From Ehretia macrophylla (lineage: Eukaryota > Streptophyta > Magnoliopsida > Boraginales > Ehretiaceae): a stretch of DNA of 64,000 nucleotides. Positions 10,813 through 57,332 of the stretch are shown here, one piece after another; positions within the stretch are counted from its first letter, which is position 1, and the number at the start of each line of letters is the position of its first letter. Below the pieces are notes generated by a model. It saw nothing but the letters and a program-made list of their open reading frames with translations. It ran no database searches and was not told where the DNA came from. The translations under genes and the position numbers were made by a program. Location of the stretch: positions 17,164,146 to 17,228,145 of the forward strand of contig CM075773.1 of NCBI GenBank assembly GCA_037974665.1, written 5' to 3'.

Positions 10813-10846
10813 GTGTTAACGGTTCACAGTCCCAGCCTAGAGATAT

Positions 10847-37162: not shown

Positions 37163-37719
37163 GTCATGTTGAGGGCACAATTCCTTTATGTGTTAACGGT
37201 TCACAGTCCCAGCCTAGAGATATGGCCCATTCAAAAGGCCCAATGGGCTTAACGACAACCCATCCGCTTCAACAACGCAGCATCCTCGCAAGACTTGATA
37301 TCGACGCATTGTAGGGTCCACTAATGTGCCGCGAGTAAGGTTGTCGTCCTTTTAACGGCTCACGACGTAAGATCCAGGACGGAAAAACAGAGAAAATGAA
37401 GAAAAGTAGCCCGAAACTGATAAAAACGTTCGATTTTGAGCTCTGAAAAGGGCATAGCGAGCTAGCTCGCTACCACCGTCGTAGAGCTCTCAGAGAGCTT
37501 TCCAACGGTATGCTGTGCGCCTCGTAACTCCTTACGGATCAAAAGTTATGGGCACCGTAGCGACGGAGACCTGGTCACAAGCCCTACGCCCTCGGTTTGC
37601 GGGCCCAGCCTCCACGTGAAGAGAAGTTGTCTTGCCCAAGGTTCCGTGGGATTCGATAATAGAAATGTGGTGGGTAAAGTATCTTGCCAACCCTAACCGG
37701 AGCAAAAAAAATTGAAAAG

Positions 37720-37839
37720 GGGGGTGCAACACCAGGACTTCCCAGGGGGTGACCCATCCTAGGACTAATCTCGCCCAAGAACGCTTAACTTCGGAGTTCT
37801 GATGGGATCCGGTACATTAGTGCTGGTATGATCGCACCT
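37720..37839 (-). rRNA. 5S rRNA gene 5S-56 (divergent)
   Basis: Seven substitutions: C107G, G89C (box C), A77C, G72U, G60U (box A), C26U and G1A. G60U, C26U and G1A are shared with 5S-54, two units before. Confidence 0.85.
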
Positions 37840-38396
37840 GTCATGTTGAGGGCACAATTCCTTTATGTGTTAACGGTTCACAGTCCCAGCCTAGAGATAT
37901 GGCCCATTCAAAAGGCCCAATGGGCTTAACGACAACCCATCCGCTTCAACAACGCAGCATCCTCGCAAGACGTGATATCGACGCATTGTAGGGTCCTCTA
38001 ATGTGCCGCGAGTAAGGTTGTCGTCCTTTTAACAGCTCACGACGTACGATCCGGGACGGAAAAACAGAGCAAAAGAAGAAAAGTGGCCCGAAACTGATGA
38101 AAACGTTCGATTTTGAGCTCCGAAAAGGGCACAGCGAGCTTGCTCGCTGGCCCCGTCGTAGAGCTCTCAGAGAGCTTTCCAACGGTATGCTGTGCGCCTC
38201 GTAACTCCTTACGGATCAAAAGTTATGGGCACCGTAGCGACGGAGACCTGGTCACAAGCCCTACGCCCTCGGTTTGCGGGACCAGCCTCCACGTGAAGAG
38301 AAGTTGTCTTGCCCAAGGTGCCGTGGGATTCGATAATAGAAATGTGGTGGGTAAAGTATCTTGGCAACCCTAACCGGAGCAAAAAAAATTGAAAAG

Positions 38397-38516
38397 GGGG
38401 GTGCAACACGAGGACTTCCCAGGGGGTCACCCATCCTAGTACTACTCTCGCCCAAGCACGCTTAACTTCGGAGTTCTGATGGGATCCGGTGCATTAGTGC
38501 TGGTATGATCGTACCC
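38397..38516 (-). rRNA. 5S rRNA gene 5S-57
   Basis: One substitution, G5A, with a flank reading cccgtaatg. Both changes recur in 5S-64 and 5S-79. Confidence 0.95.
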
Positions 38517-39073
38517 GTAATGTTGAGGGCACAATTCCTTTATGTGTTAACGGTTCACAGTCCCAGCCTAGAGATATGGCCCATTCAAAAGGCCCAATGG
38601 GCTTAACGACAACCTATCCGCTTCAACAACGCAGCATCCTCGCAAGACGTGATACCGACGCATTGTAGGGTCCTCTAATGTGCCGCGAGTAAGATTGTTG
38701 TCCTTTTAACAGCTCATGACGTACGATCCGGGACGGAAAAACAGAGCAAAAGAAGAAAAGTGGCCCGAAACTGATGAAAACGTTTGATTTTGAGCTCCGA
38801 AAAGGGTACGGCGAGCTAGCTACCTGCCCCCGTCGTAGAGCTCTCGGAGAGCTTTCCAACGGTTTGCTGTGCGCCGCGTAACTCCTTACGGATCAAAAGT
38901 TATGGGCACCGGAGCGACGGAGACCTGGTCACAAGCCCTACGCCCTCGGTTTGCGGGCCCAGCCTCCACGTGAAGAGAAGTTGTCTTGCCCAAGGTGCCG
39001 TGGGATTCGATAATAGAAATGTGGTGGGTAAAGTATCTTGGCAACCCTAACCGGAGCAAAAAAAATTGAAAAG

Positions 39074-39193
39074 GGGGGTGCAACACGAGGACTTCCCAGG
39101 GGGTCACCCATCCTAGTACTACTCTCGCCCAAGCACGCTTAACTTCGGAGTTCTTATGGGATCCGGTGCATTAGTGCTGGTATGATCGCACCC
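39074..39193 (-). rRNA. 5S rRNA gene 5S-58
   Basis: One substitution, C39A, the allele also seen in 5S-59, 62, 65, 68, 69, 77, 80 and 83. Confidence 0.95.
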
Positions 39194-39750
39194 GTCATGT
39201 TGAGGGCACAATTTCTTTATGTGTTAACGGTTCACAGTCCCAGCCTAGAGATATGGCCCATTCAAAAGGCCCAATGGGCTTAACGACAACCCATCCGCTT
39301 CAACAACGCAGCATCCTCGCAAGACGTGATATCGACGCATTGTAGGGTCCTTTAATGTGCCGCGAGTAAGTTTGTCCTCCTTTTAACAGCTCACGACGTA
39401 CGATCCGGGATGGAAAAACAGAGCAAAATAAGAAAAGTGGCCCGAAACTGATGAAAACGTTCGATTTTGAGCTCCAAAAAGGGCATAGCGAGCAAGCTGG
39501 CTACCCCCGTCGTAGAGCTCTCAGAGAGCTTTCCAACGGTATGCTGTGCGCCTCGTAATTCCTTACGGATCAAAAGTAATGGGCACCGTAGCGACGGAGA
39601 CCTGTTCACAAGCCCTACGCCCTCGGTTTGCGGGACCAGCCTCCACGTGAAGAGAAGTTGTCTTGCCCAAGGTGCCGTGGGATTCGATAATAGAAATGTG
39701 GTGGGTAAAGTATCTTGGCAACTCTAACCGGAGCAAAAAAAATTGAAAAG

Positions 39751-39870
39751 GGGGGTGCAACACGAGGACTTCCCAGGGGGTCACCCATCCTAGTACTACT
39801 CTCGCCCAAGCACGCTTAACTTCGGAGTTCTTATGGGATCCGGTGCATTAGTGCTGGTATGATCGCACCC
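39751..39870 (-). rRNA. 5S rRNA gene 5S-59
   Basis: One substitution, C39A. The spacer change ggcaactctaacc and flank caatttcttt are shared with unit 69. Confidence 0.95.
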
Positions 39871-40427
39871 GTCATGTTGAGGGCACAATTTCTTTATGTG
39901 TTAACGGTTCACAGTCCCAGCCTAGAGATATGGCCCATTCAAAAGGCCCAATGGGCTTAACGACAACCCATCCGCTTCAACAACGCAGCATCCTCGCAAG
40001 ACGTGATATCGACGCATTGTAGGGTCCTCTAATGTGCCGCGAGTAAGGTTGTCGTCCTTTTAACAGCACACGAAGTACGATCCAGGACGGAAAAACATAG
40101 CAAAAGAAGAAAAGTGGCCCGAAATAGATGAAAACGTTCGATTTTGAGCTCCGAAAAGGGCAGAGCAAGCTATCACGCTGCCCCCATCGTAGAGCTCTCA
40201 GAGAGCTTTCCAACGGTATGCTGTGCGCCTCGTAACTCCTTACGGATCAAAAGTTATGGGTACCGTAGTGACGGAGACCTGTTCACAAGCCCTATGCCCT
40301 CGGTTTGCGGGCCCAGCCTCCACGTGAAGAGAAGTTGTCTTCCCCAAGGTGCCACAGGATTCGATAATAGAAATGTGGTGGATAATGTATCTTGGCAACC
40401 CTAACCGGAGCAAAAAAAATTAAAAAG

Positions 40428-40547
40428 CGGGGTGCAACACGAGGACTTCCCAGGGGGTCACCCATCCTAGTACTACTCTTGGCCAAGCGAGCTTAACTTC
40501 GGAGTTCTGATGGGATCCGGTGCATTAGTGCTGGTATGATCGCACCC
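40428..40547 (-). rRNA. 5S rRNA gene 5S-60
   Basis: Four substitutions: G68A, G66C, U59C and G58U (last two in box A); G at nt 120. G66C links it to 5S-70, 75 and 81. Confidence 0.9.
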
Positions 40548-41104
40548 GTCATGTTGAGGGCACAATTCCTTTATGTGTTAACGGTTCACAGTCTCAGCCT
40601 AGAGATATGGCCCATTCAAAAGGCCCAATGGGATTAACCACAACCCATCCGCTTCAACAACGCAGCATCCTCGCAAGACTTGATATCGACGCATTGTAGG
40701 GTCCTCTAATGTGCCGCGAGTAAGTTTGTCGTCCTTTTAACAGCTCACGACGTACGATCCGGGACGGAAAAACAAAGCAAAAGAAGAAAAGTGGCCCGAA
40801 ACTAATGAAAACGTTCAATTTTGAGCTCCGAAAAGGGCACAACGAGGTTGCTCGCTGGCCCTGTCGTAGAGCTCTCAAAGAGCTTTCCAACGGTATGCTG
40901 TGCGCCTCGTAGCTCCTTACGGATCAAAAGTTATGGGTACCGAAGCGACGGAGACCTGGTCACAAGCCCTACGCCCTCGGTTTGCGGGCCCAGCCTCCAC
41001 GTGAAGAGAAGTTGGCTTGCCCAAGGTGCCGTGGGGTTCGATAATAGAAATGTGGTGGGTAAAGTATGTTGGCAACCCTAACCGGAGCAGAAAAAAGTGA
41101 AAAG

Positions 41105-41224
41105 GGGGGTGCAACACGAGGACTTCCCAGGGGGTCACCCATCCTAGTACTACTCTCGCCCAAGCACGCTTAACTTCGGAGTTTTGATGGGATCCGGTGC
41201 ATTAGTGCTGGTATGATAGCACCC
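41105..41224 (-). rRNA. 5S rRNA gene 5S-61
   Basis: Substitutions G41A and G7U, the same pair as 5S-71 and 5S-76. Confidence 0.94.
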
Positions 41225-41781
41225 GTCATGTTGAGGGCACAATTCCTTTATGTGTTAACGGTTCACAGTCCCAGCCTAGAGATATGGCCCATTCAAAAGG
41301 CCCAATGGGCTTAACGACAACCCATCCGCTTCAACAACGCAGCATCCTCGCAAGATGTGATACCGACGCATTGTAGAGTCCTCTAATGTGCCGCGAGTAA
41401 GGTTGTCGTCCTTTTAACAACTCACGACGTACGATCCAGGACGGAAAAACAGAGCAAAAGAAGAAAAGTGGCCCGAAACAGATGAAAACGTTCAATTTTG
41501 AGCTCCGAAAAGGGTACGGCGAGCTAGCTACCTGCCCCCGTCGTAGAGCTCTCGGAGAGCTTTCCAACGGTTTGCTGTGCGCCGCGTAACTCCTTTCGGA
41601 TCAAAAGTTATGGGCACCGGAGCGACGGAGACCTGGTCACAAGTCCTACGCCCTCGGTTTGCGGGCCCAGCCTCCACGTGAAGATAAGTTGTCTTGCCCA
41701 AGGTGCCGTGGGATTCGATAATAGAAATGTGGTGGATAAAGTATTTTGGCAACCCTAACCGGAGCAAAAAAAATTGAAACG

Positions 41782-41901
41782 GGGGGTGCAACACGGGGAC
41801 TTCCCAGGGGGTCACCCACCCTAGTACGACTCTCGCCCAAGCACGCTTACCTTCGGAGTTCTTATGGGATCCGGTGCATTAGTGCTGGTATGATCGCACC
41901 C
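41782..41901 (-). rRNA. 5S rRNA gene 5S-62
   Basis: Five substitutions: U106C, A83G (box C), A74C, U52G (box A) and C39A. A83G recurs in 5S-72 and 83. Confidence 0.88.
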
Positions 41902-42458
41902 GTCATGTTGAGGGCACAATTCCTTTATGTGTTAACGGTTCACAGTCCCAGCCTAGAGATATGGCCCATTCAAAAGGCCCAATGGGCTTAACGACAACCC
42001 ATCCGCTTCAACAACGCAGCATCCTTGCAAGACGTGATATCGACGCATTGTAGGGTCCTCTAATGTGCCGCGAGTAAGGTTGTCGTCCTTTTAACAACTC
42101 ACGACGTACGATCCGCGACGGAAAAACAGAGCAAAAGAAGAAAAGTGGCCCGAAACTGATGAAAACGTTGGATTTTGAGCTCCGAAAAGGGCACAACGAG
42201 CTAGCTCGTTGCCCCCGTTGTAGAGCTCTCAGAGAGCTTTCCAACGGTATGCTGTGCGCCTCGTTACTCCTTACGGATCAAAAGTTATGGGCACCGTAGC
42301 GACGAAGACCTGGTCACAAGCCTTACGCCCTCGGTTTGCGGGACCAGCCTCCACGTGAAGAGAAGTTGTCTTGCCCAAGGTGCCGTGGGATTCGATAAGA
42401 GAAATGTGGTGTGTAAAGTATCTTGGCAACCCTAACCGGAGCAAAAAAAATTGAAAAG

Positions 42459-42578
42459 GGAGGTGCAACACGAGGACTTCCCAAGGGGTCACCCATCCTA
42501 GTACTACTCTCGCCCAAGCACGCTTAACTTCGGAGTTCTGATGGGATCCGGTGCATTAGTGCTGGTATGATCTCAGCC
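42459..42578 (-). rRNA. 5S rRNA gene 5S-63
   Basis: Substitutions C118U, C95U, C6A and G3C. G3C and C118U both affect helix I. Confidence 0.9.
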
Positions 42579-43135
42579 GTCATGTTGAGGGCACAATTCC
42601 TTTATGTGTTAACGGTTCACAAACCCAGCCTAGAAATATGGCCCATTCACAAGGCCCAATGGGCTAAACGACAACCCATCCGCTTCAACAACGCAGCATC
42701 CTCGCAAGACGTGATATCGACGCATTGTAGGGTCCTCTAATGTGCCGCGAGTAAGGTTGTCGTCCTTTTAACAGCTCACGACATACGATCCGGGACGGAA
42801 AAACAGAGAAAAAGAAGAAAAGTGGCACGAAACTGATAAAAAGGTTCGATTTTGATCTCCGAAAAGGGCACAGCGAGCTTGCTCGCTATTCCCGTCGTAG
42901 AGCTCTCAGAGAGCTTTCCAACGGTATGCTGTGCGCCTCGTAACTCCGTACGGATCAAAAGTTATGGGCACCGTAGCGACGGAGACCTGGTCACAAGCCC
43001 TACGCCCTCGGTTTGCGGGACCAGCCTCCACGTGAAGAGAAGTTGTCTTGCCCAAGGTGCCGTGGGATTCGATAATAGAAATGTGGTGGGTAAAGTATCT
43101 TGGCAACCCTAACCGGAGCAAAAAAAATTGAAAAG

Positions 43136-43255
43136 GGGGGTGCAACACGAGGACTTCCCAGGGGGTCACCCATCCTAGTACTACTCTTGCCCAAGCACGC
43201 TTAACTTCGGAGTTCTGATGGGATCCGGTGCATTAGTGCTGGTATGATCGTACCC
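43136..43255 (-). rRNA. 5S rRNA gene 5S-64
   Basis: Substitutions G68A and G5A. Its spacer matches that of unit 79 closely and shares gctattcccg with unit 67. Confidence 0.93.
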
Positions 43256-43812
43256 GTAATGTTGAGGGCACAATTCCTTTATGTGTTAACGGTTCACTGT
43301 CCCAGCCTAGAGATATGGCCCATTCAAAAGGCCCAATGGGCTTAACGACAACCCATCCGCTTCAACAACGCAGAATCCTCGCAAGACGTGATACCGACGC
43401 ATTGTAGGGTCCTCTAATGTGCCGCGAGTAAGATTGTCGTCCTTTTAACAGCTCACGACGTACGATTCGGGACGGAAAAACAGAGCAAAAGAAGAAAAGT
43501 AGCCCGAAACTGATGAAAACGTTCGATTTTGAGCTCCGAAAAGGGTACGGCGAGCTAGCTACCTGCCTCCGTCGTAGAGCTCTCGGAGAGCTTTCCAACG
43601 GTTTGCTGTGCGCCGCGTAACTCCTCACGGATCAAAAGTTATGGGCACCGTAGCGACGGAGACCTGGTCAGAAGCCCTACGCCCTCGGTTTGCGGGCCTA
43701 GCCTCCACGTGAAGAGAAGTTGTCTTGCCCAAGGTGCCGTGGGATTCGATAATAGAAATATGGTGGATAAAGTATCTTGGCAACCCTAATCGGAGCATAA
43801 CAAATTTAAAAG

Positions 43813-43932
43813 GGGGGTGCAACACGAGGACTTCCCAGGGGGTCACCGATCCTAGTACTACTCTCGCCCAAGCACGCTTAACTTCGGAATTCTTATGGGA
43901 TCCAGTGCATTAGTGCTGGTATGATCGCACTC
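43813..43932 (-). rRNA. 5S rRNA gene 5S-65
   Basis: Five substitutions: G85C (box C), C44U, C39A, C29U and G2A. The terminator run is broken (gcataacaaattt). Confidence 0.87.
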
Positions 43933-44489
43933 GTCATGTTGAGGGCACAATTCCTTTATGCGTTAACGGTTCACAGTCCCAGCCTAGAGAGATGGCCCAT
44001 TCAAAAGGCCCAATGGGCTTAACGACAACCCATCCGCTTCAACAACGCAGCATCCTCGCAAGACATGATATCGACGCATTGTAGGGTCCTCTAATGTGCC
44101 GCGAGTAAGGTTGTCGTCCTTTTAACAGCTCACGACATACGATCCGGGACGGAAAAACAGAGCAAAAGAAGAAAAGTGGCCCGAAATTGATGAAAATGTT
44201 CGATTTTGAGCTCCGAAAAGGGCACAGCTAGCTGGCTCGCTGCCCCCGTCGTAGAGCTCTTAGAGTGCTTTCAAACGGTATGCTGTGCGCCTCGTAACTC
44301 CTTACGGATCAAAAGTTATGGGTACCGTAGCGACGGAGACCTGGTCACAAGCCCTACGCCCTCGGTTTGCGGGCCCAGCCTCCACGTGAAGAGAAGTTGT
44401 CTTGCCCAAGGTGCCGTGGGATTCGATAATAGAAATGTGGTGGGTAAAGTATCTTGGCAACCCTAACCGGAGCAAAAAAAATTGAAAAG

Positions 44490-44609
44490 GGGGGTGCAAC
44501 ACGAGGACTTCCCTGGGGGTCACCCATCCTAGTACTACTCTCGCCCAAGCACGCTTAACTTCGGAGTTCTGATGGGATCCGGTGCATTAGTGCTGGTATG
44601 ATCGCAGCC
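44490..44609 (-). rRNA. 5S rRNA gene 5S-66
   Basis: Substitutions U96A (box C) and G3C. G3C is shared with 5S-63 and 5S-75. Confidence 0.93.
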
Positions 44610-45166
44610 GTCATGTTGAGGGCACAATTCCTTTATGTGTTAACGGTTCACAGTCCCAGCCTAGAGATATGGCCCATTCAAAAGGCCCAATGGGCTTAAC
44701 GACAACCCATCCGCTTCAACAACGCAGCATCCTCGCAAGACGTGATATCGACGCATTGTAGGGTCCTCTAATGTGCCGCGAGTAAGGTTGTCGTCCTTTT
44801 AACAGCTCACGACATACGATCCGGGACGGAAAAACATAGCAAAAGAAGAAAAGTGTCCCAAAACTGGTGAAAACGTTCGATTTTGAGCACCGAAAAGGGC
44901 ACAGCGAGCTTGCTCGCTATTCCCGTCGTAGAGCTCTCAGAGACCTTTCCAACGGTATGCTGTGCGCCTCGTAACTCCGTACGGATCAAAAGTTATGGGC
45001 ACCGGAGCGACGGAGACTTGGTCACAAGCCCTACCCCCTCGGTTTGCGGGCCCAGCCACCACGTGAAGAGAAGTTGTCTTGCCCAAGGTGCCGTGGGATT
45101 CGATAATAGAAATGTGGTGGGTAAAGTATCTTGGCAACCATAACCGGAGCAAAAAAAATTGAAAAG

Positions 45167-45286
45167 GGGGGTGCAACACGAGGACTTCCCAAGGGGTCAA
45201 CCATCCTAGTACTACTCTCGCCCAAGCACGCTTAACTTCGTAGTTCTGATGGGATCCGGTGCATTAGTGCTGGTATGATCGCACCC
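45167..45286 (-). rRNA. 5S rRNA gene 5S-67
   Basis: Substitutions C95U and G87U (box C), and C46A. Confidence 0.92.
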
Positions 45287-45843
45287 GTCATGTTGAGGGC
45301 ACAATTCCTTTATGTGTTAACGGTTCACAGTCCCAGCCTAGAGATATGGCCCATTCAAAAGGCCCAATGGGCTTAACGACAACCCATCCGCTTCAACAAC
45401 GCAGCATCCTCGCAAGACGTGATACCGACGCATTGTAGGGTCCTCTAATGTGCCGCGAGGAAGGTTGTCGTCCTTTTAACAGCTCACGACGTACGATCCG
45501 GGACGGAAAAACAGAGCAAATGAAGAAAAGTAGCCCGAAACTGATGAAAACGTTCGATTTTGAGCTCCGAAAAGGGTACGGCGAGCTAGCTACCTGCCCC
45601 CGTCGTAGAGCTCTCGGAGAGCTTTCCAACGGTTTGCTGTGCGCCGCGTAACTCCTTACGGATCAAAAGTTATGGGCACCGGAGCGACGGAGACCTGGTC
45701 ACAAGCCCTACGCCCTCGGTTTGCGGGCCCAGCCTCCACGTGAAGAGAAGTTGTCTTACCCAAGGTGCCGTGGGATTCGATAATAGAAATGTGGTGGGTA
45801 AAGTATGTTGGCAACCATAATCGGAGCAAAAAAAATTGAAAAG

Positions 45844-45963
45844 GGGGGTGCAACACGAGGACTTCCCAGGGGGTCACCCATCCTAGTACTACTCTCGCCC
45901 AAGCACGCTTAACTTCGGAGTTCTTATGGGATCCGGTGCATTAGTGCTGGTATGATCGCACCC
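45844..45963 (-). rRNA. 5S rRNA gene 5S-68
   Basis: One substitution, C39A. The spacer has the gataccgacg marker of units 58, 65 and 80. Confidence 0.95.
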
Positions 45964-46520
45964 GTCATGTTGAGGGCACAATTCCTTTATGTGTTAACGG
46001 TTCACAGTCCCAGCCTAGAGATATGGCCCATTCAAAAGGCCCAATGGGCTTAACGACAACCCATCCGCTTCAACAACGCAGCATCCTCGCAAGACGTGAT
46101 ATCAACGCATTGTAGGGTCCTCTAATGTGCCGCGAGTAAGGTTGTCGTCCTTTTAACAGCTCACGACGTACGATCCGGGACGGAAAAACAGATCAAAAGA
46201 AGAAAAGTGGCCCGAAACTGATGAAAACGTTCAATTTTGAGCTCCGAAAAGGGCATAGCAAGCTAGCTCGCTACCTCCGTCGTAGAGCTCTCAGAGAGCT
46301 TTCCAACGGTATGCTGTGCGCCTCGTAACTCCTTACGGATCAAAAGTTATGGGCACCGTAGCGACGGAGACCTGGTCACAAGCCCTACGCCCTCGGTTTG
46401 CGGGCCCAGCCTCCACGTGAAGAGAAGTTGTCTTGCCCAAGGTGCCGTGGGATTCGATAATAGAAATGTGGTGGGTAAAGTATCTTGGCAACTCTAACCG
46501 GAGCAAAAAAAATTGAAAAG

Positions 46521-46640
46521 GGGGGTGCAACACGAGGACTTCCCAGGGGGTCACCCATCCTAGTACTACTCTCGCCCAAGCACGCTTAACTTCGGAGTTC
46601 TTATGGGATCCGGTGCATTAGTGCTGGTATGATCGCACCC
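46521..46640 (-). rRNA. 5S rRNA gene 5S-69
   Basis: One substitution, C39A. It matches 5S-59 in gene, terminator side and upstream flank at an exact offset of 6,770 bp. Confidence 0.95.
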
Positions 46641-47197
46641 GTCATGTTGAGGGCACAATTTCTTTATGTGTTAACGGTTCACAGTCCCAGCCTAGAGATA
46701 TGGCCCATTCAAAAGGCCCAATGGGCTTAACGACAACCCATCCGCTTCAACAACGCAGCATCCTCGCAAGACATGATATCGACGCATTGTATGGTCCTCT
46801 AATGTGCCGTGAGTAAGGTTGTCGTCCTTTTAACAACTCACGACGTACGATCCAGGACAGAAAAACAGCGTAAAAGAAGAAAAGTGGCCCGAAACTGATT
46901 AAAACGTTCGATTTTGAGCTCCGAAAAGGGTATAGCAAGCTATCACGCTGCCCCCATCGTAGAGCTCTCAGAGAGCTTTGCAACGGTATGTTGTGCACCG
47001 CACAACTCCTTACGGATAAAAAGTTATGGGCACCGGAGCGACGAAGACCTGGTCACAAGCCCTTCGCCCTCGGTTTGCGGGCCTAGCCTCCATGTGAAGC
47101 GAAGTTGTCTTGCACAAGGTGCCATAGGATTCGATAATAGAAATGTGGTGGATACAGTATCTTGGCAATCCTAACTGGAGCAAAAAAAATTAAAAAG

Positions 47198-47317
47198 GGG
47201 GGTGCAACACGAGGACTTCCCAAGAGCTCACCCATCTTAGTACTACTCTCGGCCAAGCACGCTTAACTTCGGGGTTCTGAAGAGATCCGGTGCATTAGTG
47301 CTGGTATGATCACACCT
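47198..47317 (-). rRNA. 5S rRNA gene 5S-70 (most divergent full-length copy)
   Basis: Ten substitutions: C95U, C93U, C91G and G81A (box C), G66C, U45C, A37U, C35U, C6U and G1A. The flank reads cctgtaatg. Box C damage makes activity unlikely; it is best seen as a decaying copy of the 5S-60 type. Confidence 0.82.
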
Positions 47318-47874
47318 GTAATGTTGAGGGCACAATTCCTTTATGTGTTAACGGTTTACAGTCCCAGCCAAGAGAGATGGCCCATTCAGAAGGCCCAATG
47401 GGATTAACCACAACCCATCCGCTTCAACAACGCAGCATCCTCGCAAGACTTGATATCGACGCATTGTAGGGTCCTCTAATGTGCCGCGAGTAAGGTTGTC
47501 GTCCTTTTAACAGCTCACGACGTACGATCCGGGACGGAAAAACAGAGCCAAAGAAGAAAAGTGGCCCGAAACAGATGGAAACGTTCGATTTTGAGCTCCG
47601 AAAAGGGCACAGCGAGCTTGCTCGCTGACCCCGTCGTAGAGCTCTCAGAGAGCTTTCCAACGGTATGCTGTGCGCCTCGTAGCTCCTTACGGATCAAAAG
47701 TTATGGGTACCGTAGCGACGGAGACCTGGTCACAAGCCCTACGCCCTCGGTTTGCGGGCCCTGCCTCCACGTGAAGAGAAGTTGTCTTACCCAAGGTGCC
47801 GTGGGATTCGATAATAGAAATGTGGTGGGTAAAGTATGTTGGCAACCCTAACCGGAGCAAAAAAAATTGAAAAG

Positions 47875-47994
47875 GGGGGTGCAACACGAGGACTTCCCAG
47901 GGGGTCACCCATCCTAGTACTACTCTCGCCCAAGCACGCTTAACTTCGGAGTTTTGATGGGATCCGGTGCATTAGTGCTGGTATGATAGCACCC
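47875..47994 (-). rRNA. 5S rRNA gene 5S-71
   Basis: Substitutions G41A and G7U, identical in gene to 5S-61 and 5S-76. Confidence 0.94.
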
Positions 47995-48551
47995 GTCATG
48001 TTGAGGGCACAATTCCTTTATGTGTTAACGGTTCACAGTCCCAGCCTAGAGATATGGCCCATTCAAAAGGCCCAATGGGCTTAACGACAACCCATCCGCT
48101 TCAACAACGCAGCATCCTCGCAAGATGTGATACCGACGGATTGTAGAGTCCTCTAATGTGCCGCGAGTAAGGTTGTCGTCCTTTTAACAACTCACGACGT
48201 ACGATCCAGGACGGAAAAACAGAGCAAAAGAAGAAAAGTGGCCCGAAACAGATGAAAACGTTCGATTTTGAGCTCCGAAAAGGGTACGGCGAGCTAGCTA
48301 CCTGCCCCCGTCGTAGAGCTCTCGGAGAGCTTTCCAACGGTTTGCTGTGCGCCGCGTAACTCCTTTCGGATCAAAAGTTATGGGCACCGGAGCGACGGAG
48401 ACCTGGTCACAAGCCCTACGCCCTCGGTTTGCGGGCCCAGCCTCCACGTGAAGAGAAGTTGTCTTGCCCAAGGTGCCGTGGGATTCGATAATAGAAATGT
48501 GGTGGGTAAAGTATTTTGGCAACCCTAACCGGAGCAAAAAAAATTGAAACG

Positions 48552-48671
48552 GGGGGTGCAACACGAGGACTTCCCAGGGGGTCACCCACCCTAGTACTAC
48601 TCTCGCCCAAGCATGCTTAACTTCGGAGTTCTAATGGGATCTGGTGCATTAGTGCTGGTAAAATCGCACCC
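48552..48671 (-). rRNA. 5S rRNA gene 5S-72 (divergent)
   Basis: Six substitutions: A83G (box C), G58A (box A), C39U, G30A, A11U and C10U. The TATA-like flank reads ctttaagtg. Confidence 0.86.
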
Positions 48672-49227
48672 GTCATGTTGAGGGCACAATTCCTTTAAGT
48701 GTTAACGGTTCACAGTCCCAGCCTAGAGATATGGCCCATTCAAAAGGCCCAATGGGCTTAACGACAACCCATCCGCTTCAACAACGCAGCATCCTTGCAA
48801 GACGTGATATCGACGCATTGTAGGGTCCTCTAATGTGCCGCGAGTAAGGTTGTCGTGATTTTAACAACTCACGACGTACGATCCGGGACGAAAAAACAGA
48901 GCAAAAGAAGAATGTGGCCCGAAACTGATGAAAACGTTCGATTTTGAGCTCTGAAAAGGGCACGGCGAGCTATCTAGCTGCCCCCGTCGTAGAGCTCTCA
49001 GAGAGCTTTCCAACGGTATGCTGTGCGCCTCGTAACTCCTTACGGATCAAAAGTTATGGGCACCGGAGCGACGGAGACCTGGTCACAAGCCCTACGCCCT
49101 CGGTTTGCGGGACCAGCCTCCACGTGAAGAGAAGTTGTCTTGCCCAAGGTGCCGTGGGATTCGATAATAGAAATGTGGTGGGTAAAGTATCTTGGCAACC
49201 CTAACCGGAGCAAAAAAAATTGAAAAG

Positions 49228-49347
49228 GGGGGTGCAACACGAGGACTTCCCTGGGGGTCACCCATCCTAGTACCACTCTCGCCCAAGCACGCTTAACTTC
49301 GGAGTTCTGATGGGATCCGGTGCATTAGTGCTGGTGTGATCGCACCC
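49228..49347 (-). rRNA. 5S rRNA gene 5S-73
   Basis: Substitutions U96A, A74G and U12C, exactly as in 5S-78, and the same flank changes (T at -1, gcataattcc, cacaattcc). Confidence 0.92.
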
Positions 49348-49904
49348 ATCATGTTGAGGGCATAATTCCTTTATGTGTTAACGGTTCACAATTCCAGCCT
49401 AGAGATATGGCCCATTCAAAAGGCCCAATGGGCTTAACGACAACCCATCCGCTTCAACAACGCAGCATCCTCGCAAGACGTGATATCGACGCATTGTAGG
49501 GTCCTCTAATGTGCCGCGAGTAAGGTTGTCGTCCTTTTAACAGCTCACGACGTACGATCCGGGACGGAAAAACAGAGCAAAAGAAGAAAAGTGGCCCGAA
49601 ACTGATGAAAATGTTCGATTTTGAGCTCCGAAAAGGGCATAGCGAGCTTGCTCGCTGTTCCCGTCGTAGAGCTCTCAGAGAGCTTTCCAACGGTATGCTG
49701 TGCGCCTCGTAACTCCTTACGGATCAAAAGTTATGGGCACCGGAGCGACGGAGACCTGGTCACAAGCCCTACGCCCTCGGTTTGCGGGCCCAGCCTCCAC
49801 GTGAAGAGAAGTTGTCTTGCCCAAGGTGCCGTGGGATTCGATAATAGAAATGTGGTGGGTAAAGTATCTTGGCAACCCTAACCGGAGCAAAAAAAATTGA
49901 AAAT

Positions 49905-50024
49905 GGGGGTGCAACACGAGGACTTCCCAGGGGGTCACCCATCCTAGTACTACTCTCGCCCAAGCACGCTTAACTTCGGAGTTCTGATGGGATCCGGTGC
50001 ATTAGTGCTGGTATGATCGCACCC
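49905..50024 (-). rRNA. 5S rRNA gene 5S-74 (consensus)
   Basis: Exact consensus gene, the only one after 30 kb. The flank reads cccgtaatg and the region upstream has several changes (tgtattaacgattc). Confidence 0.96.
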
Positions 50025-50573
50025 GTAATGTTGAGGGCACAATTCCTTTATGTATTAACGATTCACAATCCCAGCCTAGAGATATGACCCATTCAATAGG
50101 CCCAATGGGCTTAACGACAACCCATCCGCTTCAACAACGCAGCATCCTCGCAAGACGTGATATCGACGCATTGTATGGTCCTCTAATGTGCCGCGAGTAA
50201 GGTTGTCGTCCTTTTAACAGCTCACGACGTACGATCCAGGACGGAAAAACAGAGCAAAAAAAGAAAAGTGGCCCGAAATAGATGAAAACGTTCGATTTTG
50301 AGCTCCGAAAAGGGCAGAGCAAGCTATCACGCTGCCCCCATCGTAGAGCTCTCAGAGAGCTTTCCAACGGTATGCTGTGCGCCTCGTAACTCCTTACGGA
50401 TCAAAAGTTATGGGTACCGTAGTGACGGAGACCTGTTCACAAGTCCCATGCCCTCGGTTTGCGGGCCCAGCCTCTACGTGAAGAGAAGTTGTCTTGCCCA
50501 AGGTGCCGTGGGATTCATTAATAGAAATGTGTCGGATAAGGCAAGGCTAACCGGGACAAAAAAAATTAAAAAG

Positions 50574-50693
50574 CGGGGTGCAACACGAGGACTTCCCAGG
50601 GGGTCACCCATCCTAGTACTACTCTCGGCCAAGCACGCTTAACTTCGGGGTTCTGATGGGATCCGGTGCATTAGTGCTGGTATGATCGCAGCC
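50574..50693 (-). rRNA. 5S rRNA gene 5S-75
   Basis: Substitutions G66C, U45C and G3C; G at nt 120. The left spacer has lost 8 bp and is rearranged near 50530, where ggtgggtaaag is replaced by gtcggataagg. Confidence 0.91.
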
Positions 50694-51250
50694 GTCATGT
50701 TGAGGGCACAATTCCTTTATGTGTTAACGGTTCACAGTCCCAGCCTAGAGATATGGCCCATTCAAAAGGCCCAATGGGATTAACGACAACCCATCCGCTT
50801 CTACAACGCAGCATCCTCTTAAGACTTGATATCGACGCATTGTAGGGTCCTCTAATGTGCCGCGAGTAAGGTTGTCGTCCTTTTAACAGCTCACGACGTA
50901 CGATCCAGGACGGAAAAACAGAGCCAAAGAAGAAAAGTGGCCCGAAACAGATGGAAACGTTCGATTTTGAGCTCCGAAAAGGGCACAGCGAGCTTGCTCG
51001 TTGGCCCCGTCGTAGAGCTCTCAGAGAGCTTTCCAACGGTATGCTGTGCGCCTCGTAGCTCCTTACGGATCAAAAGTTATGGGTACCGTAGCGACGGAGA
51101 CCTGGTCACAAGCCCTACGCCCTCGGTTTGCGGGCCCTGCCTCCACGTGAAGAGAAGTTGTCTTGCCCAAGGTGCCGTGGGATTCGATAATAGAAATGTG
51201 GTGGGTAAAGTATCTTGGCAACCCTAACCGGAGCAAAAAAAATTGAAAAG

Positions 51251-51370
51251 GGGGGTGCAACACGAGGACTTCCCAGGGGGTCACCCATCCTAGTACTACT
51301 CTCGCCCAAGCACGCTTAACTTCGGAGTTTTGATGGGATCCGGTGCATTAGTGCTGGTATGATAGCACCC
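51251..51370 (-). rRNA. 5S rRNA gene 5S-76
   Basis: Substitutions G41A and G7U, the third copy of this allele pair. Confidence 0.94.
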
Positions 51371-51927
51371 GTCATGTTGAGGGCACAATTCCTTTATGTG
51401 TTAACGGTTCACAGTCCCAGCCTAGAGATATGGCCCATTCAAAAGGCCCAATGGGCTTAACGACAACCCATCCGCTTCAACAACGCAGCATCCTCGCAAG
51501 ATGTGATACCGACGCATTGTAGAGTCCTCTAATGTGCCGCGAGTAAGGTTGTCGTCCTTTTAACAACTCACGACGTACGATCCAGGGCGGAAAAACAGAG
51601 CCAAAGAAGAAAAGTGGCCCGAAACAGATGAAAACGTTGGATTTTGAGCTCCGAAAAGGGTACGGCGAGCTAGCTACCTGCCCCCGTCGTAGAGCTCTCG
51701 AAGAGCTTTCCAACAGTATGCTGTGCGCCGCGTAACTCCTTACGGATCAAAAGTTATGGGCACCGAAGTGACGGAGACCTGGTCATAAGCCCTATGCCCT
51801 CGGTTTGCGGGCCCAGCCTCCAAGTGAAGCGAAGTTGTCTTGCCCAACGTGCCGTGGGATTCGATAATAGAATTGTGGTGGATAAAGTATCTTGGCATCC
51901 CTAACCGAAGGAAAAAAAATTGAAAAG

Positions 51928-52047
51928 GGGGTTGCAACACGAGGACTTCCCAGGGGGTCACCCATCTAAGTACTACTCTCGCCCAAGCATGCTTAACTTC
52001 GGAGTTCTTATGGGATCCGGTGCATTAGTGCTGGTATAATCGCACCC
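51928..52047 (-). rRNA. 5S rRNA gene 5S-77 (divergent)
   Basis: Six substitutions: C116A, G81A, A80U, G58A (box A), C39A and C10U. Position fits the 62/72/83 group, but it lacks A83G. Confidence 0.86.
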
Positions 52048-52596
52048 GTCATGTTGATAGCACAATTCCTTTATGTGTTAACGGTTCACAGTCCCAGCCT
52101 AGAGAGATGGCCCATTCAGAAGGCCCAATGGGCTTAATGACAACCCATCCGCTTCAACAACGCAGCATCCTGGCAAGACGTGATATCGACGCATTGTAGG
52201 GTCCTCTAATGTGCCGCGAGTAAGGTTGTCGTCCTTTTAACAGCTCACGACGTACGATCCGGAACGGAAAAACAGAGCAAAAGAAGAAAAGTGGCCCGAA
52301 ACTGATGAAAACGTTTGATTTTGAGCTCCGAAAAGGGCACAACTAGCTGCCTCAGTTGTAGAGCTCTCAGAGAGCTTTCCAACGGTATGCTGTGCGCCTC
52401 GTTACTCCTTACGGATCAAAAGTTATGGGCACCGTAGCGACGAAGACCTGGTCACAAGCCTTACGCCCTCGGTTTGCGGGCCCAGCCTCCACGTGAAGAG
52501 AAGTTGTCTTGCCCAAGGTGCCGTAGGATTCGATAATAGAAATGTGGTGGGTAAAGTATCTTGGCAACCCTAACCGGAGCAAAAAAAATTGAAAAG

Positions 52597-52716
52597 GGGG
52601 GTGCAACACGAGGACTTCCCTGGGGGTCACCCATCCTAGTACCACTCTCGCCCAAGCACGCTTAACTTCGGAGTTCTGATGGGATCCGGTGCATTAGTGC
52701 TGGTGTGATCGCACCC
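52597..52716 (-). rRNA. 5S rRNA gene 5S-78
   Basis: Substitutions U96A, A74G and U12C, as in 5S-73; its spacer instead matches unit 63 and has an 8-bp deletion near 52345. It looks like a recombinant of the two types. Confidence 0.92.
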
Positions 52717-53272
52717 ATCATGTTGAGGGCATAATTCCTTTATGTGTTAACGGTTCACAATTCCAGCCTAGAGATATGGCCCATTCAAAAGGCCCAATGG
52801 GCTTAACGACAACCCATCCGCTTCAACAACGCAGCATCCTCGCAAGACGTGATATCGACGCATTGTAGGGTCCTCTAATGTGCCGCGAGTAAGGTTGTCG
52901 TCCTTTTAACAGCTCACGACATACGATCCGGGACGGAAAAACAGAGAAAAAGAAGAAAAGTGGCACGAAACTGATAAAAAGGTTCGATTTTGATCTCCGA
53001 AAAGGGCACAGCGAGCTAGCTAGCTGCCCCCGTCGTAGAGCTCTCGAAGAGCTTTCCAACGGTATGCTGTGCGTCTCGTAACTCCTTACGGATCAAAAGT
53101 TATGGGCACCGTAGCGACAGAGACCTGGTCACAAGCCCGACGCCCTCGGTTTGCGGGCCCAGCCTCCACGTGAAGAGAAGTTCTCTTGCCCAAGGTGCCG
53201 TGGGATTCGATAATAGAAATGTGGTGGGTAAAGTATCTTGGCAACCCTAACCGGAGCAAAAAAAATGAAAAG

Positions 53273-53392
53273 GGGGGTGCAACACGAGGACTTCCCAGGG
53301 GGTCACCCATCCTAGTACTACTCTCGCCCAAGCACGCTTAACTTCGGAGTTCTGATGGGATCCGGTGCATTAGTGCTGGTATGATCGTACCC
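53273..53392 (-). rRNA. 5S rRNA gene 5S-79
   Basis: One substitution, G5A, with the cccgtaatg flank of 5S-57 and 5S-64. Confidence 0.95.
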
Positions 53393-53949
53393 GTAATGTT
53401 GAGGGCACAATTCCTTTATGTGTTAACGGTTCACAGTCCCAGCCTAGAGATATGGCCCATTCAAAAGGCCCAATGGGCTTAACGACAACCCATCCGCTTC
53501 AACAACGCAGCATCCTCGCAAGACGTGATACCGACGCATTGTAGGGTCCTCTAATGTGCCGCGAGTAAGATTGTCGTCCTTTTAACAGCTCACGACGTAC
53601 GATCCGGGACGGAAAAACAGAGCAAAAGAAGAAAAGTAGCCCGAAACTGATGAAAACGTTCGATTTTGAGCTCCGAAAAGGGTACGGCGAGCTAGCTACC
53701 TGCCCCCGTCGTAGAGCTCTCGGAGAGCTTTCCAACGGTTTGCTGTGCGCCGCGTAACTCCTTACGGATCAAAAGTTATGGGCACCGGAGCGACGGAGAC
53801 CTGGTCACAAGCCCTACGCCCTCGGTTTGTGGGCCCAGTCTCCACGTGAAGCGAAGTTGTCTTGCCCAAGGTGCCGTGGGATTCGATAATAGAAATGTGG
53901 TGGATAAAGTATCTTGGCAACACTAACCGGAGAAAAAAAAATTGAAAAG

Positions 53950-54068
53950 GGGGGTGCAACAAGAGACTTCTCAGGGGGTTACCCATCCTAGTACTACTCT
54001 CGCCCAAGCACGTTTTACTTCGGAGTTCTTATGGGATCCGGTGCATTAGTGCTGGTATGATCGCACCC
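53950..54068 (-). rRNA. 5S rRNA gene 5S-80 (1-nt deletion, divergent)
   Basis: 119 nt: one base is lost at about nt 104-105 beside G108U. Also G98A, G89A (box C), G56A and U53A (box A) and C39A. Function is doubtful. Confidence 0.83.
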
Positions 54069-54625
54069 GTCATGTTGAGGGCACAATTTCTTTATGTGTT
54101 AACGGTTCACAGACCCAGACTAGAGAGATGGCCCATTCAGAAGGCCCAATGGGCTTAACGACAACCCATCCGCTTCAACAACGCAGCATCCTCGCAAGAC
54201 ATGATATTGACGCATTGTAGGGTCCTCTAATGTGCCGCGAGTAAGGTTGTCGTCCTTTTAACAGCACACGAAGTACGATCCAGGACGGAAAAACATAGCA
54301 AAAGAAGAAAAGTGGCCCGAAATAGATGAAAACGTTCGATTTTGAGCTCCGAAAAGGGCAAAGAAAGCTAGCTGGCTGCCCCTGTCGTAGAGATCTCGGA
54401 GAGCTTTACAACGGTATGTTGTGCGCCGCGTAAATCCTTACGGATCAAAAGTTATGGGCACCGGAGCGACGGAGACCTGGTCACAAGCCCTACGCCCTCG
54501 GTTTGCGGGCCCAGCCTCCACGTGAAGAGAAGTTGTCTTGCCCAAGGTGCCACAGGATTCGATAATAGAAATGTGGTGGATAATGTATCTTGGCAACCCT
54601 AACCGGAGCAAAAAAAATTAAAAAG

Positions 54626-54745
54626 CGGGGTGCAACACGAGGACTTCCCAGGGGGTCACCCATCTTAGTACTACTCTCGGCCAAGCACGCTTAACTTCGG
54701 AGTTCTGATGGGATCCGGTGCATTAGTGCTGGTATGATCGCACCG
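54626..54745 (-). rRNA. 5S rRNA gene 5S-81
   Basis: Substitutions G81A (box C), G66C and G1C; G at nt 120. Confidence 0.91.
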
Positions 54746-55301
54746 GTCATATTGAGGGCACAATTCCTTTATGTGTTAACGGTTCACAGTCCCAGCCTAG
54801 AGATATGGCCCATTCAAAAGGCCCAATGGGATTAACGACAACCCATCCGCTTCAACAACGCAGCATCCTCGCAAGACTTGATATCGACGCATTGTAGGGC
54901 CCTCTAATGTCCAGCAAGTTAGGTTGTCGTCCTTTTAACAACTCACGACGTACGATCCAGGGCGGAAAAACAGAGCCAAAGAAGAAAAGTGGCCCGAAAC
55001 AGATGAAAACGTTGGATTTTGAGCTCCGAAAAGGGCACAGCGAGCTTGCTCGCTGACCCCGTCGTAGAGCTCTCAGAGAGCTTTCCAACGGTATGCTGTG
55101 CGCCTCGTAGCTCCTTACAGATCAAAAGTTATGGGTACCGTAGCGACGGAGACCTGGTCACAAGCCCTACGCCCTCGGTTTACGGGCCCGCCCTCCACGT
55201 GAAGCGAAATTGTCTTGCCCAAGGTGCCATGGGATTCGATAATAGAAATGTGGTGGGTAAAGTATGTTGGCAACCCTAACCGGAGCAAAAAAAATTGAAA
55301 A

Positions 55302-55421
55302 CGGCGTACAACACGAGGACTTCCCAGGGGGTCACCCATCCTAGTACTACTCTCGCACAAGCACGCTTAACTTCGGAGTTCTGATGGGATCCAGTGCATT
55401 AGTGCTGGTATGATCGCACCC
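55302..55421 (-). rRNA. 5S rRNA gene 5S-82
   Basis: Substitutions C117G, C114U, G65U and C29U; G at nt 120. Helix I is weakened on its 3' strand. Confidence 0.88.
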
Positions 55422-55978
55422 GTCATGTTGAGGGCACAATTCCTTTATGTGTTAATGGTTCACAGACCCAGCCTAGAGATATGGCCCATTCAAAAGGCCC
55501 AATGGGCTTAACGACAACCCATCCGCTTCAACAACGCAGCATCCTCGCAAGATGTGATACCGACGCATTGTAGAGTACTCTAATGTGCCGCGAGTAAGGT
55601 TGTCGTCCTTTTAACAACTCACGACGTACGATCCAGGACGGAAAAACAGAGCAAAAGAAGAAAAGTGGCCCGAAACAGATGAAAACGTTCGATTTTGAGC
55701 TCCGAAAAGGGTACGGCGACCTAGCTCCCTCCCCCCGTCGCAGAGCTCTTGGAGAGCTTCCCAACGGTCTGCTGTGCGCCGCGTCACTCCTTTCGGATCA
55801 AAAGTTATGGGCACCGGAGCGACGGAGACCTGGTCACAAGCCCTACGCCCTCGGTTTGCGGGCCCAGCCTCCACGTGAAGATAAGTTGTCTTGCCCAAGG
55901 TGCCGTGGGATTCGATAATAGAAATGTGGTGGGTAAAGTATTTTGGCAACCCTAACCGGAGCAAAAAAAATTGAAACG

Positions 55979-56098
55979 GGGGGTGCAACACGAGGACTTC
56001 CCAGGGGGTCACCCACCCTAGTACTACTCTCGCCCAAGCACGCTTAACTTCGGGGTTCTTATGGGATCCGGTGCATTAGTGCTGGTATAATCGCACTC
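55979..56098 (-). rRNA. 5S rRNA gene 5S-83
   Basis: Five substitutions: A83G (box C), U45C, C39A, C10U and G2A. Confidence 0.87.
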
Positions 56099-56655
56099 GT
56101 CATGTTGAGGGCACAATTCCTTTATGTGTTAACGGTTCACAGTCCCAGCCTAGAGATATGGCCCATTCAAAAGGCCCAATGGGCTTAACGACAACCCATC
56201 CGCTTCAACAACGCAGCATCCTTGCAAGACGTGATATCGACGCATTGTAGGGTCCTCTAATGTGCCGCGAGTAAGGTTGTCGTCCTTTTAACAACTCACG
56301 ACGTACGATCCAGGACGAAAAAACAGAGCAAAAGAAGAAAAGTGGCCCGAAACTGATGAAAACGTTCGATTTTGAGCTCCGAAAAGGGCACAGCAAGCTA
56401 GCTAGCTGCCCCCGTCGTAGAGCTCTCAGAGAGCTTTCCAACGGTATGCTGTGCGCCTCGTAACTCCTTACGGATCAAAAGTTATGGGCACCGGAGCGAC
56501 GGAGACCTGGTCACAAGCCCTACGCCCTCGGTTTGCTGGCCCAGCCTCCACGTGAAGAGAAGTTGTCTTGCCCAAGGTGCCGTGGCATTCGATAATAGAA
56601 ATGTGGTGGGTAAAGTATCTTGGCAACGCTAACCGGAGCAAAAAAAATTGAAAAG

Positions 56656-56775
56656 GGGGGTGCAACACGAGGACTTCCCAGGGGGTCACCCATCCTAGTA
56701 CTACTCTCGACCAAGCACGCTTAACTTTGGAATTCTGGTCGGATCCGGTGCATTAGTGCTGGTATGATTGCACCC
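56656..56775 (-). rRNA. 5S rRNA gene 5S-84 (divergent)
   Basis: Six substitutions: G66U, G48A, C44U, U38C, C36G and G7A. The spacer has caacgctaacc, a marker of the first 18 kb. Confidence 0.86.
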
Positions 56776-57332
56776 GTCATGTTGAGGGCACAATTCCTTT
56801 ATGTGTTAACGGTTCACAGTCCCAGCCTAGAGATATGGCCCATTCAAAAGGCCCAATGGGCTTAACGACAGCCCATCCGCTTCAACAACGCAGCATCCTC
56901 GCAAGACGTTATATCGACGCGTTGTAGGGTCCTCTAATGTCCCGTGAGTAAGGTTGTCATCCTTTTAACAGCTCACGACGTACGATCTGGGACGGAAAAA
57001 TAGAGCAAAAGAAGAAAAGTGGCCCGAAACTGATGAAAACGTTCGATTTTGAGCTCCGAAAAGGGCACATCGAGGTAGCTCGCTACCCCCGTCGTAGAGC
57101 TCTCATAGAGCTTTCCAACGGTATGCTGTGCACCTCGTAACTCCTTACGGATCAAAAGTTATGGGCACCGTAGCGACGGAGACCTGGTCACAAGCCCTAC
57201 GCCCTCGGTTTGCGGGCCCAGCCTCCACGTGAAGAGAAGTTGTCTTGCCCAAGGTGCCGTGGGATTCGATAATAGAAATGTGGTGGGTAAAGTATCTTGG
57301 CAACCCTAACCGGAGCAAAAAAAATTGAAAAG

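Follow-up and report, generated by a model that had tools for sequence, protein, structure and literature searches.

Were single units or groups of units copied in this tandem array of 5S genes? The initial annotation had proposed groups. The window, by which we mean the whole 64,000-nucleotide stretch of Ehretia macrophylla DNA analysed here, is filled by a plant-type 5S rDNA array, with tandem 5S genes in a single orientation and spacer between them. Matches to Rfam RF00001 mark 94 genes, all on the minus strand, and cutting the array at these genes gave units mostly of 677 bp. Our unit numbering is the same as the earlier one (unit 57 at 38398, 59 at 39752 and 69 at 46522). Unit 94, cut by the window end, is included in gene counts and excluded from marker counts and order tests, which used 93 of the 94 units. 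Any two units are 93.9% identical, and only the pairs 61/71 (5) and 57/79 (11) show fewer than 13 differences. An origin from tandem Cassandra elements was considered and rejected: neither a 12-base motif of the initiator-tRNA primer binding site, expected beside a 5S-bearing LTR, nor its 10-base core has an exact copy on either strand of the window. For relatives, one exact sequence pattern run against each of two collections without eukaryote genomes, viral_contigs and genome_contigs, gave no match.

1..64000, minus strand: 5S rDNA array (94 RF00001 matches, gene spacings 641-690 bp)

Unit classes recur in one cyclic order

Clustering on 393 rare markers held in common sorted units 57-83 into seven classes, A-G, a number picked by us. 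Unit 65, first labelled G, was placed in A by unsupervised clustering, which left G with two units. Along the array the classes read FGABCDEFAEFGABCDEABCDEFABCD, obeying the cycle A-B-C-D-E-F-(G)-A in 24 of 26 steps. The order statistic reached 22 of 26, whereas the best of 20,000 shuffles of unit order scored 17, and nine four-unit words were repeated, against at most three in shuffled orders. These data demonstrate both the classes and their order.

37721..56656, minus strand: higher-order repeat domain, units 56-83, (E)FGABCDEFAEFGABCDEABCDEFABCD (rare-marker clustering, order test, and chain test, which adds unit 56)

Contrasts within and between labels are partly circular, labels and contrasts being drawn from the same markers; no such circularity affects the order and chain tests. 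The 193 transitions alone returned the same seven clusters as all 393 markers, and the 191 transversions alone gave only six, blurred clusters. Transversion sharing (5.79 within classes against 0.66 between) is descriptive, as the labels derive from the same data. Clusters built from single thirds of the unit agreed in part with the first labels (adjusted Rand 0.39-0.68). Two properties of a higher-order repeat in the satellite sense, distinct monomer classes and their fixed linear order, are found here. Given a single cyclic order of which shuffles fall short, what had been called a mosaic is therefore better named a higher-order repeat of 6-7 units (about 4.1-4.7 kb) with whole-unit slips.

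Blocks of units recur in the same order

To score chains of matching units, unit differences were additively corrected for each unit's own decay and compared with 300 shuffles of unit order. Six chains were reached in none of the 300 shuffles, supporting groups of units as what was copied. Five lie in the domain: 59-65 with 74-80 (lag 15), 56-63 with 66-73 (lag 10), 69-73 with 74-78 (lag 5), 69-72 with 80-83 (lag 11) and 59-62 with 80-83 (lag 21). A further chain, 74-77 with 80-83 (lag 6), had P=0.01 in this test and P=0.078 in a marker test without decay correction.

38398..43136, minus strand: units 57-63, reading F G A B C D E (lag-10 match to 67-73, 0/300 shuffles; 96.4% identity)
45168..49905, minus strand: units 67-73, reading F G A B C D E (lag-10 match to 57-63; lag-5 match of 69-73 to 74-78)
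49906..53950, minus strand: units 74-79, reading A B C D E F (lag-15 match to 59-64, 0/300 shuffles; 96.0% identity)
53951..56656, minus strand: units 80-83, reading A B C D (lag-11 match to 69-72 and lag-21 match to 59-62, 0/300 shuffles)

The repeat is old and decayed: block copies are 94.2-96.4% identical, averaging 24.6-39.0 changes per unit between copies, against 93.9% for any pair of units. A third property of satellite higher-order repeats, block copies far more alike than monomers, is thus absent. Most units stay 676-677 bp across block joins; units 74 and 77 measure 669 bp. The pair 61/71 stands apart, its 5 differences comparing with 37 and 29 in neighbouring pairs at the same lag.

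The matches proposed in the initial annotation fared unevenly. Units 70-73 with 75-78 and 60-62 with 81-83 lie within the chains at lags 5 and 21. Units 60-65 with 75-80 likewise fall inside a chain, but the pair 65/80 is weak (47 differences, some rare markers in common). The match of 59-62 with 69-72 is real but begins at unit 57 (unit 56 more weakly), and its exact spacing of 6,770 bp is lost inside unit 62/72, near 42143, where unit 72 is 676 bp. For 63-65 with 66-68, the pairs 63/66 and 64/67 are strong but 65/68 is weak, and this lag-3 chain alone was not significant (P=0.14, 300 order shuffles). Of the off-diagonal lines expected at lags 3, 5, 10 and 15, the last three stood, and the lag-3 chain was not significant by itself. 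Nor is identity set by distance alone, the pattern that was to have refuted the proposal: in units 57-83 the residual difference at lags 15 and 21 was -10.1 and -10.9, respectively, against +0.1 to +1.2 at lags 13, 14, 16, 17 and 20, and similarity did not fall with distance (Mantel P=0.96).

The sixth chain, 39-43 with 47-51 (lag 8), is a separate eight-unit shift, in which units 40 and 48 carry an identical 34-bp gene truncation. MAFFT broke this deletion (39/40, 47/48) into a 36-column gap and some 19 spurious differences, so that units 40 and 48 looked too similar to each other and their genes too divergent; scores were clipped in the marker and chain tests. The pairs 39/47, 42/50 and 43/51 back the block even without 40/48.

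26283..29632, minus strand: units 39-43, first copy of the eight-unit shift (chain 39-43 with 47-51, 0/300 shuffles)
31663..35012, minus strand: units 47-51, second copy (same chain; 34-bp deletion in genes 40 and 48)

There is also, under the first class labels, a hint of an older three-unit layer, pairing A with D and G (column 82), B with E (column 423) and C with F (columns 259, 412 and 469). The C-F likeness is clear (28.9 mean differences, the lowest of all between-class values). A period-3 test gave P=0.0013 for units 57-83, P=0.03 for 1-34, P=0.10 for all units together and P=0.53 for 1-56, and lag 3 exceeded lag 1 across 93 units (P=0.0012). Three spacer haplotypes (columns 415-517) gave signals at lag 3 (z 3.0) and lag 6 (z 2.8), with no cyclic order among them (P=0.45). 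A special preference for three-unit shifts is unneeded: in a toy simulation, ordinary shifts by one to three units are enough to give a peak at lag 3 and a drop at lag 4, though not the lag-6 signal.

Mosaic units and candidate hybrids suggest exchange inside units

The initial annotation had copies switching partner, unit 78 having the gene of 73 and the spacer of 63. This was borne out: unit 78 carries rare markers of 73 at columns 25-166 (the gene plus some 45 bp of spacer) and of 63 at columns 325-517, a one-switch mosaic on 13 shared derived markers (P=0.0014). Units 59, 80 and 74 are related as a two-switch mosaic on shared derived markers only (P=0.0004), and any of the three may be the recombinant. 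An earlier test of 78 and 59 had taken every column that differed, private changes among them, and for 59 had counted columns of one deletion singly; rerunning it on shared derived substitutions only upheld both, so that these mosaics are demonstrated. The same marker set gave no significant mosaic for 66, 71 and 64. A stricter test on 2-2 splits within classes gave P=0.055 for A and P=0.055 for E, and nothing significant in B, C, D and F.

52598..53273, minus strand: unit 78, a mosaic that changes from 73-like to 63-like sequence between columns 166 and 325
43814..44490, minus strand: unit 65, lying at the irregular join to E66 and a candidate hybrid that passes from A to D near columns 376-426
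49906..50574, minus strand: unit 74, lying at the irregular join after E73 and a candidate hybrid that passes from E/F to A near columns 253-334

Both irregular joins of the domain fall within units resembling in-register hybrids, 65 and 74, as unequal exchange predicts. The hybrid test left unit 65 out of the class references and added unit 56 to E. Unit 65 has A states at columns 38, 111, 245, 316 and 376 and is not A at 377, 426, 437 and 605-679; its second part favours D over G by columns 414, 431 and 651, with no positive D marker, and columns 141, 334 and 427 speak against a hybrid. Unit 74 lacks A markers 82 and 141, has 123 (F, also B70) and 164 (E), and shows A states at most columns in 259-469; columns 116, 318, 324, 348, 472 and 605-607 speak against it. 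The two candidate hybrids are thus partly demonstrated, 65 from missing A and G markers and 74 from few markers. Together with the mosaics, they support the earlier proposal of unequal exchange or conversion with junctions inside units.

Recent changes fall alike on gene and spacer

Total divergence is 2.95% in the gene and 3.79% in the spacer, and 11 of 94 genes are identical to the consensus; with gene divergence below spacer divergence, the gene was therefore not always free of constraint or homogenisation. For recent changes a lack of constraint is demonstrated, since they are as frequent per base in gene as in spacer: singleton substitutions number 82 in the gene and 356 in the spacer (P=0.53), and class-internal private changes number 48 and 249 (P=0.59). 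Some gene changes are shared by copies: each of the four B units has G>C at position 66, and positions 5, 7, 10, 39, 41, 83 and 96 are each changed in three of four copies of a class. Singletons may be sequencing errors, as their transition:transversion ratio is the random one (146:292), but their counts per unit are overdispersed (mean 5.1, variance 12.1). The array also shows an excess of C-to-T changes, with which dense methylation at CG and CHG would be consistent.

Units 56-83 would, we infer, be transcriptionally silent. A tentative reading, which we consider somewhat doubtful, is that this 5S stretch no longer serves as genes but evolves in the manner of a satellite, and that blocks with mutant genes were amplified as passengers without sign of selection on the gene. 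If true, rDNA would here be becoming a higher-order satellite inside a still recognisable rDNA array.

A probable history of tandem copying

We favour, at a probability of about 0.75, the reading that units 56-83 are a fossil higher-order repeat, formed by tandem copying through unequal homologous exchange and altered by later slips, conversion and decay. The exchange mechanism and order of events that we infer are as follows. Six or seven 5S units (A-G), distinct beforehand, would have been copied in tandem, stepwise by whole units, leaving at least four partial block copies. The process would have been unequal homologous exchange or its equivalent, a slip in register while DNA was being repaired. 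Later slips would have removed or added units, leaving hybrids 65 and 74 at the joins, and short exchanges between sister copies would then have produced mosaics (78) and a recent one-unit copy (61/71). Mutation would afterwards have outrun homogenisation, recent changes spreading alike over gene and spacer. With the block copied in the same order and then free to mutate, its copying history is still legible.

Gene conversion alone, writing multi-unit patches over existing units at constant unit number, is improbable: the mosaics and the single-unit pair 61/71 fit short tracts, but a constant register predicts one spacing, and blocks sit at 5, 6, 10, 11, 15 and 21 units, which requires changes of unit number. 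An assembly artefact, with one stretch placed several times or blocks joined in the wrong order, is also unlikely. 5S arrays are difficult to assemble, and the available text of an Arabidopsis study describes published assemblies of one accession several-fold apart in 5S content (PMC9757041); however, the copies differ by far more per unit than repeated placement of the same reads would allow, and singletons are spread unevenly among units, not like even error. Equally unlikely as a full account is rolling-circle copying, in which extrachromosomal multi-unit circles are reinserted in tandem. Circles of exact tandem-unit multiples, 5S included, are described for human cells in the part of the source available (PMC3225859), and such copying could be the source of the first copies, but it predicts one constant block, whereas block lengths here vary and joins look hybrid. 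Chance sharing through recurrent mutation at hypermutable sites is scarcely credible: transitions do recur at CG and CHG sites (in the spacer, 0.040 and 0.037 per site per unit, compared with 0.016 for CHH), but transversions alone still separate the classes, descriptively, and the order tests, with the six strongest chains at 0/300 shuffles, are independent of mutation type.

Comparison with known systems

rDNA arrays are usually portrayed as uniform through concerted evolution, their copying steps leaving no trace. The units here have diverged enough for block copies, slips and switches to be read directly, so that block size and breakpoint position become measurable in a gene array.

Among described 5S arrays, the C. 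elegans N2 cluster resembles ours in its long-read assembly and reproducible order of unit variants, but has over 20 variants, each a few changes off a canonical unit, in five regions; the available text reports no repeated multi-unit class order (PMC8961926). For pike, a higher-order repeat is defined as a block made up of several basic 5S units and is studied in long reads, but the four read groups distinguished are pure tandem, with unique DNA, inverted blocks and dispersed, and no ordered class block is described in the portion available (PMC5437419). The maize Mo17 array is a complete plant array in one orientation, with 346 genotypes and a more diverse older side; genotypes there rest on variants in >10% of copies, and multi-unit order goes unreported in the accessible text (PMC10335936). 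The Arabidopsis HiFi clusters are gapless plant 5S clusters treated for size and orientation, and neither 'higher-order' nor 'higher order' appears in the main text as available (PMC9757041).

With centromeric satellite higher-order repeats such as human alpha satellite, the domain shares monomer classes in fixed order, block repeats, whole-monomer slips and hybrid monomers. Higher-order blocks of human alpha satellite are nearly identical and its monomers widely different; in our array a 677-bp 5S gene unit is the monomer, with at least four partial block copies, and at 94-96% identity these copies scarcely exceed the 94% of any two units. Centromere-type exchange would here be acting on 5S genes, and if other haplotypes or relatives have the same blocks, the turnover of the 5S array could be dated.

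Unit similarity along the 5S rDNA array

The whole 64-kb window is a single 5S rDNA array, in which an Rfam search placed 94 5S genes, every one on the minus strand. Units (gene plus spacer, numbered 1-94 along the window) are mostly 677 bp long (range 641-690), and the window contains no N. On its 5' side the consensus gene, presumably of the plant type, is preceded by a C at -1 and, from about -28, by a CATAAA stretch; two T runs follow on its 3' side, the same arrangement as in plant 5S units.

Across all pairs of the 93 complete units, the mean difference was 41 places (93.9% identity), and this raw measure was almost flat over distance, going from about 40 for units one apart (lag 1) to 43 for units 39 apart. 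Markers private to single units (475) made up a large share of raw differences. Fitting and subtracting each unit's decay before the distance and lag analyses made structure visible. Array-wide, residual difference showed a weak rise with distance (r=0.14, a value that 0 of 1,000 shuffles attained), and similarity peaked at lags 3, 5, 6, 8, 10 and 15 (z -5.5, -4.3, -3.5, -3.9, -4.0 and -5.4), with no peak at lag 1 (z -1.2); within units 57-83, residual difference showed no rise with distance. Identity is thus not set by distance alone. The array-wide peaks include lags 3, 5, 10 and 15, at which the initial annotation expected off-diagonal lines. The lag-3 chain (collinear run of matching units) in the higher-order domain, 61-65~64-68, was not significant in the corrected matrix (P=0.14, 300 shuffles).

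Ordered unit classes form a higher-order domain

Units 57-83 carry 67 markers with at least two carriers inside this region and at most one outside, and identical carrier sets recur among many of them (for example, units 60, 70, 75, 81 or 61, 71, 76, 82). We clustered the units by 393 rare markers and chose to divide them into seven clusters, classes A-G.

Unit classes in units 57-83 from rare-marker clustering (minus strand)
Class A: units 59, 65, 69, 74, 80
Class B: units 60, 70, 75, 81
Class C: units 61, 71, 76, 82
Class D: units 62, 72, 77, 83
Class E: units 63, 66, 73, 78
Class F: units 57, 64, 67, 79
Class G: units 58, 68

The same seven clusters were recovered from 193 transitions by themselves; 191 transversions gave six blurred clusters (adjusted Rand 0.65 versus the first labels). 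Separate clustering of each third of the unit gave 0.39 to 0.68.

Along the array, the sequence of classes is FGABCDEFAEFGABCDEABCDEFABCD, obeying the cycle A-B-C-D-E-F-(G)-A at 24 of 26 steps, the two exceptions being A65>E66 and E73>A74. Summed over classes, the commonest successor accounted for 22 of 26 steps (maximum 17 among 20,000 shuffles), and nine four-unit words recurred (maximum three among shuffles). In the corrected matrix, domain chains at lags 15, 10, 5, 11 and 21 were matched by 0 of 300 shuffles, and chain 74-77~80-83 had P=0.01. The class order and these five chains bear out the proposal that groups of units were copied. The higher-order stretch first placed at 38397-56098 is likewise real, with its limits now at 37721-56656; unit 56 is probably class E, because the lag-10 chain begins there.

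Irregular joins and mosaic units

If growth proceeded by in-register unequal exchange, a unit at an irregular join should begin in one class and end in another. Both irregular joins are likely, though not proven, to be such hybrids, judging from their marker states. Unit 65, leading into E66, matches class A at columns 38, 111, 245, 316 and 376 of the unit alignment and departs from it at 377, 426, 437 and 605-679; columns 141, 334 and 427 speak against an A-to-other hybrid. Its second part favours D over G at columns 414, 431 and 651, with zero positive D markers. Unit 74, right after E73, lacks A markers 82 and 141, carries 123 (an F marker also in B70) and 164 (an E marker), and has A states across most of columns 259-469; columns 116, 318, 324, 348, 472 and 605-607 speak against a hybrid.

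For mosaics we used only derived substitutions at which a unit agrees with one of two sisters but not with the other. Unit 78, described initially as joining the gene of 73 to the spacer of 63, was 73-like at six columns (25-166) and then 63-like at seven (325-517), a single switch (P=0.0014) that bears out the change of partner, the 73-like part taking in the gene and about 45 bp of spacer. Unit 59 was 80-like at five columns (82-348), 74-like at ten (414-546) and 80-like at three (605-607; P=0.0004). Units 66, 71 and 64 (5, 3 and 5 markers, respectively) were not significant in this test. Two-two splits gave P=0.055 within class A and within class E and were not significant within B, C, D and F. 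Pair 61/71 differs at only 5 places versus 37 and 29 for its same-lag neighbours, so later copying of one unit likely lies behind it.

Block copying elsewhere in the array

An eight-unit block copy independent of the domain was found as a lag-8 chain, reached by 0 of 300 shuffles.

Block copy outside the domain (minus strand)
26283-29632: units 39-43
31663-35012: units 47-51

Block copying therefore extends beyond the stretch initially described. One 34-bp deletion is common to genes 40 and 48. It cuts the gene short at its 3' end, taking about 26 gene bases and the nearer T run; the farther T run stays.

Separately, an insertion of roughly 12 bp that repeats AAAAGGGGGTGC sits at the gene 3' end in eleven units; six carrier pairs lie at lag 3, above expectation within units 1-34 (P=0.025).

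Carriers of the AAAAGGGGGTGC insertion (minus strand)
440-23575: units 1, 3, 5, 6, 8, 9, 11, 17, 20, 23, 34

Alignment columns 415-517 hold three linked spacer haplotypes, exact in 18, 16 and 15 of 93 units and scattered throughout the array (1-64000).

Age and gene state

Identity between block copies runs from 94.2 to 96.4%. Under the first class assignment, 297 substitutions are private to one copy over 27 units; if plants mutate at about 7e-9 per site per generation, the age would be, very roughly, on the order of two million generations. Private changes range from 1 to 22 per unit, so no single clock fits.

The gene is not exempt from recent change: singleton substitutions (82 in gene versus 356 in spacer, P=0.53) and changes private within classes (48 versus 249, P=0.59) fall in both. 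Overall divergence is lower in the gene (2.95% versus 3.79%), as is the CG transition rate per site and unit (0.026 versus 0.040), so older constraint or homogenisation may have acted on it. Certain gene changes predate amplification, such as position 66 G>C, common to all four B units. Eleven of 94 genes are identical to consensus: 10 of 56 in units 1-56 versus 1 of 37 in units 57-93 (P=0.045), and 1 of 27 in units 57-83 alone (P=0.17). They lie in units 5-43 (3170-29074), except one in unit 74 (49906-50024).

In the spacer, C-to-T change is 2.3 to 2.5 times commoner at CG and CHG positions than at CHH positions, a bias consistent with methylation in the germ line in the past. Across 1-64000, singleton transitions and transversions stand at 146:292, as for random change, which may reflect sequencing error or a genuine mutation process; alleles found in several units, unlike singletons, include many C>T and G>A changes.

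Mechanism and comparison

The best-supported account is unequal homologous exchange, repeated with shifts by whole units, after which small exchanges would have followed the block copying and units would have undergone prolonged decay. In a toy simulation, a k-unit shift duplicated k units, so low lag-1 similarity would arise without a special rule. Rival explanations of the block repeats are rolling-circle copying, conversion alone and assembly error. Among the mostly open-access papers that full-text searches brought up, we recognised none by title or abstract as describing an ordered multi-unit class repeat in a 5S array. The literature for comparison comprises PMC8961926, PMC5437419, PMC10335936, PMC10462631, PMC11070557, PMC9757041 and PMC11373658.
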